Part shown: positions 31,001-32,682 of the stretch, one piece after another
Position numbering within the stretch: the first letter of the stretch is position 1
Layout of the letters: each line of letters starts with the position of its first letter
Source: Verrucomicrobiota bacterium
Lineage (GTDB): Bacteria > Verrucomicrobiota > Verrucomicrobiia > Limisphaerales > Fontisphaeraceae
Direction of reading: 5' to 3'
Assembly (NCBI GenBank): GCA_037139415.1
Contig: JBAXGN010000083.1
Coordinates: forward strand, 1-32,682
DNA length: 32,682 nucleotides
Notes under the pieces: model-generated
Databases searched by the model: none
Told to the model about the DNA's origin: nothing
The model's input: the letters and a program-made list of their open reading frames with translations, nothing else
Translations under genes and position numbers: made by a program

Positions 31001-31783
31001 TTGCGTTTGTTAAGGCGGCGAGACTATAACCATGGCGTGGATGCGAATGCTCATCTCCCGAGTTTGATTGCGGCAACCCAGGCGCTCGCCCGGGCAGTGG
31101 ATGGTTTCCAATTTCCCGGCGGCTATGTGTACAATCCGTTGCGGTATGCTTGGGAACCGCACCAGATGTATCTTAGCCGCTACACCGGTGCCCCCAAGCG
31201 CGTGCTGTTTCTGGGGATGAACCCCGGTCCGTTCGGCATGGCACAGACGGGGGTGCCATTTGGCGAGATCAAGGCGGTGCGCGATTGGATGGGCATTGAA
31301 GCGCCGGTGGGCAAACCGCCGCGCGAACATCCCGGTAAGCCGGTTTTGGGATTCCAATGTCCGCGCTCAGAAGTCAGTGGGTTGCGGTTATGGGGGCTGT
31401 TCGCCGCCCGGTTTGGTACGCCGCAGGCATTCTTTACCGATCACTTCGTGCATAACTATTGCCCATTGCTGTTCCTGGAGAATACGAAATCCGGCAAGAA
31501 CGTGACGCCGGAACAACTGCCGGGATCGGATACGGCGGCATTGTTTTCTCTCTGCGATGAGTACCTGCGTCAGTTGGTGGTCCTGCTCAAGGTGGAGTGG
31601 GCCATCGGGGTCGGTGGCTTTGCCGAGGAACGCCTGGCGCTGGCGCTGCAAGGGTGCAACGTAAAAATTGGAAAAGTGTTGCATCCCAGCCCGGCCAGTC
31701 CGGCGGCCAATCGGGATTGGGCCGGAACCGCCACGCGGCAGCTTGAAGCCCAGGGCGTATGGCCAAGGAATAACACGGGGTAA
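31001..31783 (+). CDS. SMUG1-type uracil-DNA glycosylase
   Basis: 260 residues from a TTG at 31001; a GTG at 31037 is an alternative start. The active-site motif GMNPGPFGMAQTGVPFGE (72-89), DHFVHNYCPLLF with N152 in the uracil-recognition position, and HPSPASPAANRDW (228-240) with catalytic-loop H228 match single-strand-selective monofunctional uracil-DNA glycosylase closely. It removes uracil (and oxidised derivatives) from DNA, starting base excision repair in the cytoplasm. SMUG1 is best known from animals and occurs in a limited set of bacteria. It lies 64 bases after the esterase gene and 28 bases before rnhB, a DNA-maintenance pair that may be co-transcribed. Confidence 0.92.
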   Translation: MRLLRRRDYNHGVDANAHLPSLIAATQALARAVDGFQFPGGYVYNPLRYAWEPHQMYLSRYTGAPKRVLFLGMNPGPFGMAQTGVPFGEIKAVRDWMGIEAPVGKPPREHPGKPVLGFQCPRSEVSGLRLWGLFAARFGTPQAFFTDHFVHNYCPLLFLENTKSGKNVTPEQLPGSDTAALFSLCDEYLRQLVVLLKVEWAIGVGGFAEERLALALQGCNVKIGKVLHPSPASPAANRDWAGTATRQLEAQGVWPRNNTG

Positions 31784-31811
31784 CCACCGCCACCTTCAGC
31801 CAGAAGAACCC

Positions 31812-32498
31812 ATGTCCGCAAAACCTCCAACGAATTCGCCGTCAGCCACCGGTCCCGCGACCGATCGCTTTGCGTTTGAGCGGGAGTTGTGGGCCAAGGG
31901 GATCACCCGCGTTGCCGGTGTGGATGAGGCGGGGCGCGGGCCGTTGGCGGGCCCAGTGGCGGCGGCGGCCGTCATCCTGCCGCCAAGCTGGGAACTAACC
32001 GGGCTGCCGGCGGAACTGGCCGGGCTGAACGATTCCAAGCAACTTACCGAAGCGCAGCGGGACAAGTTTTACACCGCCATCACCACGCATCCCGAGATCG
32101 CCTATGGCATTGCCCAAGTGGAGGCGGCAATCATTGACGACATCAATATCCTGCAGGCCACGCATCGCGCGATGAATCTGGCCCTGGCCAAATTGGAACC
32201 GGCACCCGCCCATGTGCTGGTGGATGGGAACGCGGTTAAGTCATTTTTGTTTCCCCAAACAGCCATCGTCAAGGGGGACGCGCGCAGTTATTCCATCGCC
32301 GCCGCGAGCGTGCTGGCGAAGGTGACCCGCGATCGCCTCATGCTGGCCTATGATCATCAATGGCCACAATACGGTTTCGCCATTCACAAAGGCTATGGCA
32401 CCCCCCAACATTTGGCGGCCATCGCCGCCCATGGCCCCTGCCCTATCCATCGGCGCAGCTTCGCCCCGTTAAAAGCGGAACAACGGGAGTTGTTTTAA
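31812..32498 (+). CDS. rnhB: Ribonuclease HII
   Basis: 228 residues from the ATG at 31812 (MSAKPPTNSPSATGP). Catalytic carboxylates are D38 and E39 in VAGVDEAGRGPLAGPV, D138 in HVLVDGN, and D174 in KVTRDRLM. Other family sequences are LNDSKQLT (72-79), SYSIAAASVLAKVTRD (159-174) and HKGYGTPQH. The end HRRSFAPLK is typical. It cuts RNA in RNA/DNA hybrids and excises single ribonucleotides. A longer frame upstream (from 31668) lies inside the SMUG gene and is not conserved in character, so the shorter start is preferred. The gene is followed after four bases by a 21-bp tandem array. Confidence 0.95.
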   Translation: MSAKPPTNSPSATGPATDRFAFERELWAKGITRVAGVDEAGRGPLAGPVAAAAVILPPSWELTGLPAELAGLNDSKQLTEAQRDKFYTAITTHPEIAYGIAQVEAAIIDDINILQATHRAMNLALAKLEPAPAHVLVDGNAVKSFLFPQTAIVKGDARSYSIAAASVLAKVTRDRLMLAYDHQWPQYGFAIHKGYGTPQHLAAIAAHGPCPIHRRSFAPLKAEQRELF

Positions 32499-32502
32499 TT
32501 CC

Positions 32503-32682
32503 GTCTTGTCCAAGCCGGACAGGGTCTTGTCCAAGCCGGACAAGGTCTTGTCCAAGCCGGACAGGGTCTTGTCTGAGTCGGTCAGGGTCTTGTCTGAGCC
32601 GGACAGGGTCTTTGTGTAGACGGACAGGGTATTAGCTTGGCCGGGCAGGGTGGTGTGGTGGTGTAGGAGGGTCGCGACTGGG
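32503..32682. repeat. 21-bp tandem array with hairpin-forming units downstream of rnhB
   Basis: Units of exactly 21 bases begin at 32503, 32524, 32545, 32566, 32587, 32608, 32629 and 32650, with a partial ninth to the window end. Units 1-3 are nearly identical, units 4-5 share a second variant (TGAG in the centre), and units 6-8 are progressively diverged but keep length and the terminal AGG. The core is CTTGTCC-AAGCC-GGACA(A/G)G, a dyad with a 7-bp stem (perfect in unit 2, 32526-32544). Unit 5 keeps pairing with G-T wobbles. No spacers, so not CRISPR; no T-tail, so not a simple terminator. The array continues beyond the window or ends near it. Confidence 0.9.

Follow-up and report, generated by a model that had tools for sequence, protein, structure and literature searches.

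Helically phased operator and iteron arrays consist of dyads or direct repeats placed at whole helical turns, where one binding sequence serves one protein. The tandem arrays that we describe here from Verrucomicrobiota resemble them in whole-turn spacing, but have mostly locus-private units in place of a single common binding sequence. REP/BIME elements of the GTAG and CGTC families are likewise short palindromic repeats with many copies, some of them in tandem. GTAG repeats have been described in the PVC superphylum, with O. terrae of Verrucomicrobia among the carriers, and REP families share both a sequence and a GTAG or CGTC end (PMC3733652); the units described here, in contrast, follow a fixed 21-bp head-to-tail step with letters that mostly belong to one locus. 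Archaeal Borg tandem repeats, as far as excerpts of their description go, are also independent, locus-specific head-to-tail repeats of variable copy number, with units of 20–21 nt among them, but these units are perfect copies, vary in length, are A-rich and lie within ORFs in about half of the cases (PMC9879509). The Verrucomicrobiota units have drifted, measure 21 bp, are often dyadic, carry no codon signature and stand 5′ of particular gene families. The TAACTGA heptamers of Beggiatoaceae form repeat sets upstream of start codons genome-wide and share one 7-bp sequence, which usually stands no more than several bases from the start codon (PMC4679880), whereas the sequence of the 21-bp arrays varies by locus and the arrays lie further upstream. 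In open-licence PMC full text, searched with narrow sets of terms, we recognised no description of such arrays.

The arrays form a dispersed class in Verrucomicrobiota with an exact step, a dyad that is general though not universal, and an enrichment 5′ of two multicopy gene families. One member lies in the window, the whole stretch of DNA analysed, which is contig C83 (32,682 bases) of the 7.9-Mb draft genome G000. The last gene of the window is rnhB, its product identified as RNase HII by Pfam (PF01351, E 6.5e-40). As the original prediction had it, the array starts four bases past the rnhB stop (stop codon at 32496-32498, first unit at 32503). TRF reported 32503-32612 at period 21 with 91% matches, 0% indels and a score of 171, and further rows at periods 21, 42 and 63 extend to 32630 and 32651; with the register also seen directly, the 21-bp array is real. 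The predicted dyad CTTGTCC-N5-GGACA(A/G)G was read in units 1–3. The count of at least eight units was too generous: six units are clear and a seventh is in register, but an eighth, at 32650-32670, is unrecognisable. From 32631 on, the window had no match among the other sequences compared, and its DNA stops at 32682 because the contig ends there.

Table 1. Features at the end of the window (contig C83 coordinates).
Feature	Position	Strand	Details and basis
rnhB (RNase HII)	31668..32498	+	longest ORF as listed, TTG start; in-frame ATG at 31812
21-bp dyad array	32503..32649	+	unit starts 32503, 32524, 32545, 32566, 32587, 32608, 32629; TRF and direct reading
Three best units	32503..32565	+	CTTGTCC-AAGCC-GGACA(A/G)G plus two-base linker; direct reading
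Units 4–5	32566..32607	+	CTTGTCTGAG(T/C)CGG(T/A)CAGG, one-sided drift changes; direct reading and pairing count
Units 6–7	32608..32649	+	degenerate, 21-bp register kept; direct reading
Tail without recognisable units, then contig end	32650..32682	.	33 bases; direct reading

No terminator-like site (GC stem plus T run) that could serve as an intrinsic terminator of rnhB was found within the window array. The units are contiguous and 21 bp long, and do not have the CRISPR arrangement of near-identical repeats with unique spacers of similar length. Taken alone, the window array fails as proof of a selected dyad: under strict Watson–Crick pairing with a 3–4 base loop, 61.9% was paired over 6 units (p 0.18, not significant), and the related units of the same genome showed no compensation. 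Pairing kept through wobbles had been read as a hint of selection. For the CTTGTC unit family this hint was not borne out, because pairing equals shuffling: in the 8-bp helix of 19 distinct units from the same genome, 88.8% of the cells were paired against 88.3% when partners were shuffled, and 1 of 152 cells had changed on both sides. These were the 19 of 23 distinct units first used; a recount that added four array-edge or broken units gave 153 of 184 pairing cells against a shuffled mean of 151.6.

Pattern and DNA-similarity searches located related units at six other places of the same genome (contigs C277, C90, C26, C58, C173 and C10). The array is therefore not unique but occurs at seven places including the window, four of which, the window among them, are at contig ends; the core of window units 1–3 recurs at C10 and C173. 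With at most three mismatches, the window unit pattern had 17 matches in the genome, 14 of them inside arrays, and the reversed pattern had 0. A REP family would show a shared palindrome in many scattered copies, whereas the CTTGTC unit is found at these seven places and as arrays; arrays before other fibronectin-III (fn3) genes carry other sequences, and direct reading of the window units showed neither GTAG nor CGTC at the stem foot. At C90 and C58, the array stands 5′ of near-identical copies (96% in protein) of a 248-residue fn3 gene. An alignment of the two regions covers 966 bp at 94% identity, yet C90 holds about 10 units and C58 about 4, from which it follows that array copy number changes quickly; such a difference between close copies is that of a variable-number tandem repeat. 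At C277, C26, C173, C10 and the window, the available DNA showed no relative of the fn3 gene; all of these places except C10 have one flank missing. No 21-bp arrays were found in 200 kb of this genome outside the window.

In C58, a gene with a PEP-CTERM motif directly follows the fn3 gene (L076:4998-5733) and is absent in C90 (L075); beyond this inserted gene the last fn3 codons are repeated. One stretch of ~50 bp, which we presume may be an insertion-sequence end, abuts the C173 array (L054:1-53) and also lies upstream of the fn3 gene of C193 (start of L135). The genome further contains 180-bp tandem repeats, with about 4–5 copies in each of two blocks (L288:18421-20000). Its distant fn3 copies on C60, C185 and C52 (L129, L131, L134) start ~130–380 bases from a contig end that carries a separate 21-bp array in each case, as if arrays broke the assembly. 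The arrays probably do break assemblies, since several lie at contig ends of this draft genome.

The fn3 genes with upstream arrays belong to a family of helical plus fibronectin-III genes, here called family A. In a fold search with one family A protein, the top matches listed were, as far as named, fibronectin-III domains or their carriers. A two-unit pattern with at most three mismatches was matched in 15 of the 320 genomes of the order; the DNA was read for three of them (G000, G018 and G241), the rest being isolated 3-mismatch matches. Both G018 and G241 have 21-bp arrays, strongly drifted in G241 and at two G018 places, and again 5′ of a family A gene; the array of C112 in G018 is without it. 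When family A was traced by protein only (E 1e-8), it was present in 45 of the 320 genomes, often in several copies, and the upstream DNA was then examined without specifying any repeat sequence. The best tandem repeat within 1 kb upstream had a period of 21, 42, 63, 84 or 105 in 93 of 136 family A members (TRF), 13 of these scoring below 80, whereas downstream a multiple of 21 was the best period in 6 of 136. At a TRF score of at least 80 the counts were 80 upstream versus 2 downstream, and at 120 or more 67 versus 0. Fisher's test gave p 6e-31 for the full comparison and p 1e-28 once the five loci that had led to the family were removed (88/131 upstream versus 6/131 downstream), values that overstate independence because many of the loci are related.

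All 136 family A rows were counted, including six with fewer than 300 bases upstream, one of these with 9. Eight of 13 named loci were entered, L114, L115 and L125 being G018 and G241 places already included and L116 and L117 having no upstream DNA; the other members are a subset of the listed matches, chosen because they appeared nearly complete and had some flanking sequence. Outside the order, arrays were found at family A members of MAGs titled Spartobacteria and Chthoniobacteraceae (L123, L124), at G332 and G562, and at two of the five tabulated G553 copies. The median distance from the end of a family A array to the beginning of the protein match is 245 bp. In 357 kb of background, a protein search at E 1e-4 showed no family A relative, and none was found in phage, plasmid and viral collections (the viral scan was pre-filtered by one peptide pattern), on which ground a phage or plasmid origin was rejected. 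The arrays are not an obligatory part of the fn3 gene either, given that arrays without the gene exist. An 8-bp tandem repeat (CGCAACCG or a rotation of it) is found past the 21-bp array, distal to the fn3 gene, at three loci (L110:4308-4373, the L114 upstream stretch and L112:2680-2709), which come from two genomes belonging to different families.

Geometry is kept more than sequence: the exact 21 bp, arms of ~7–8 bp, a loop of 3–4 bases in most arrays and, often, a 42-bp alternation. Mean self-match at multiples of 21 bp was 0.65–0.72, compared with 0.28–0.34 one base to either side, and stayed sharp out to 231 bp, although the choice of intervals, by TRF periods that are multiples of 21, favours a strict register. 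The register was undecayed over 11 units even though neighbouring units differ by about a third. Even multiples of 21 tended to exceed odd ones, and 39 of the 68 arrays showed two-unit alternation (null of 200: mean 21.5, maximum 31). Between loci, 208 of 3569 pairs of consensus units reached 13 of 21 positions versus 55 in the null; a few cross-species pairs are close and most are not, so that unit sequences mostly differ by locus. Since the arrays share step length and symmetry rather than letters, conservation searches would miss most of them.

The dyad, with a loop of 3–4 bases, was significant against column permutation (p<0.05) in 52 of the 85 family A upstream arrays with at least three units and not significant in 33; without the seed loci it was found in 50 of 83. 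The original prediction was to fall if copies elsewhere lost the dyad or if the array was unique, and neither proved to be so. With self-match peaks at multiples of 21 out to 231 bp, these are dyads at constant whole-turn spacing, as in phased arrays. Among control repeats with periods other than 21 bp, a small and not clean set, 3 of 8 were dyadic. In dyadic arrays of at least five units, which were preselected by pairing, the arms varied less on average than the loop and the linker did. The 52 dyadic arrays, also picked by pairing before covariation was counted, contained 2197 Watson–Crick cells out of 3245 (null mean 2108, maximum 2144 in 300 shuffles) and 133 double-change cells (null mean 99.9, maximum 118). 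This covariation is small and carried by few arrays, with 7 of 43 at p<0.05 singly, and the pairing excess cannot separate selection from template-switch repair, because the units descend from one another.

In a second multicopy family, family B, 16 of 29 members had an upstream array and 1 of 29 a downstream one; at a TRF score of 80, the figures were 10 and 1 of 29. The set comprises 27 of 30 loci plus two places in G236; three loci with C-terminal fragments only were left out, and further matches without loci are outside the count. Family B has no Pfam match, and the idea that it is a relative of family A found no support (hhalign E 0.42, with a family B alignment of two sequences). In 524 kb of G236, 20 places had periods that are multiples of 21 (26 TRF rows); some are short, and at least two are inside long reading frames. 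Both family A genes in this sampled DNA have an upstream array, three further places lie 5′ of family B members, and about a dozen arrays adjoin neither family; the genes beside these remaining arrays include, as we take them to be, hemA, nusA and rlmN. Of 18 places inspected further, 15 were tested for the dyad, two of them with too few units, and 9 of the 13 testable arrays were dyadic. Array density seems very unequal between genomes, considering these 20 places in 524 kb against none in the 200 kb of G000. One pattern scan of a genome contig collection gave no match.

Within this class, the window copy has decayed to some extent and, as far as its contig shows, stands alone. No family A relative was found in the window-contig DNA at hand, and the loci listed by a genome-wide search for family B include no place on C83. 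The copy after rnhB may be a solo array, or its partner gene may lie beyond the contig end.

A two-turn step and mirrored units, free of codon signature and strand preference and located 5′ of genes, fit a DNA element that is recognised by its phase and shape. Because there is neither a codon-phase signature nor a surplus of G-U mismatches over A-C ones, the dyad appears to belong to the DNA and not to an RNA or protein. The existence of the class and the location of its members are firm; as for mechanism, we infer, with a probability of roughly 40%, a helically phased non-coding DNA array with two turns per unit that acts in cis by shape. Arrays of this kind would act on the DNA itself, placing many dyads on one helix face. 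A putative dimeric, shape-reading DNA-binding protein might line up on the dyads, or small cruciforms might extrude; either could determine how the adjacent gene is expressed or insulated. The unit letters would be free to turn over because only spacing and symmetry would be read. More speculatively, and as a doubtful rather than a probable claim, the arrays could represent a new class of bacterial cis-element defined by geometry: mostly locus-private 21-bp dyads in an exact two-turn register, often as 42-bp pairs, kept 5′ of certain multicopy families even as their sequence changes, with shape (a cruciform or a shape-specific filament) and not sequence being what is read.

The same pattern might also result from a ruler-like mutational process, a serious though minority possibility. 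A neutral or selfish tandem repeat without cellular function is credible if short of likely: slippage and unequal recombination would multiply a seed, and template switching in imperfect palindromes would make the dyad. Near-identical duplicates that differ by about six units and the weakness of the covariation speak for it, strand-symmetric mismatches fit a mutational origin equally well, and quasi-palindrome and template-switch mutation is on record in the portions available of two reports (PMC3820800, PMC7954356). However, slippage has no evident reason to pick 21 bp at so many different sequences or to leave arrays 5′ of two gene families, and it has to account for a register that holds over 11 units despite the divergence between neighbours.

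Structured RNA, in which transcribed rows of 17–19 nt hairpins in a leader or trailer act on mRNA stability or translation, appears improbable. The window array does fold better than its shuffles (z −5.65 on the + strand and −3.47 on the − strand), and the median distance of 245 bp to the protein match would suit a leader; but the minimum-energy fold of the window pairs distant units instead of forming a row of small hairpins, Rfam 15 gave 0 matches at gathering thresholds in the window, and the units of the same genome are without covariation. Their wobble-compatible strand is, moreover, the antisense of the fn3 gene, with 1 GT versus 19 AC cells in C90. Counted as distinct events in the gene sense, dyad mismatches numbered 112 GT versus 124 AC (p 0.47) and showed no strand asymmetry; with G-U and A-C events equally common, no strand is favoured. 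An imbalance between GT and AC seen per array (chi2 134, df 41) had arisen because one inherited change was counted many times, and it vanished among distinct events (chi2 29.8, df 34, p 0.68), so that RNA hairpins with compensation were rejected. The covariation and the surplus of G-U over A-C expected of a structured RNA were not found, and the 52 dyadic arrays show a small excess that is strand-neutral. Among the readings first proposed for the window array, both a slippage repeat and a dyad array at the DNA level still stand, whereas the mRNA 3′ structure is weakened by these event counts and by the position of the arrays 5′ of both gene families, and the hint of compensation fails.

That the arrays and the fn3 gene together form a mobile or recombining cassette, with the arrays marking its joints, is quite unlikely. 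The C58 and C90 duplicates span array and gene together, the last fn3 codons are repeated past the inserted gene in C58, and the distribution is patchy and multicopy, but arrays also occur without the fn3 gene, none of eight Pfam-scanned neighbour proteins is a recombinase, and the phage, plasmid and viral collections hold no relative of the gene. A coding repeat, be it a 7-residue repeat peptide or an upstream reading frame, was rejected as very improbable, for although 21 is a multiple of 3 and open frames exceed the permuted range (197 versus a mean of 163, range 140–186, in 81 arrays of at least four units), codon-phase variation was significant in just 2 of the 81 (mean p 0.62), the register sometimes shifts by a number of bases not divisible by 3 (periods 20, 41, 82, 83 and 88 among family A loci, and a 20-bp unit in G018), and unit 6 of the window has a stop codon in the GTC frame.

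Whether or not the arrays prove to be helically phased elements acting in cis, they flag two multicopy gene families without known function. Without selection on the step, one would have to explain a mutational process that has a 21-bp ruler built in, which would be no less strange. With selection, some factor in these cells recognises DNA by its helical phase and mirrored shape, and the diverse arrays of a single genome would form a ready-made series in which to search for it.
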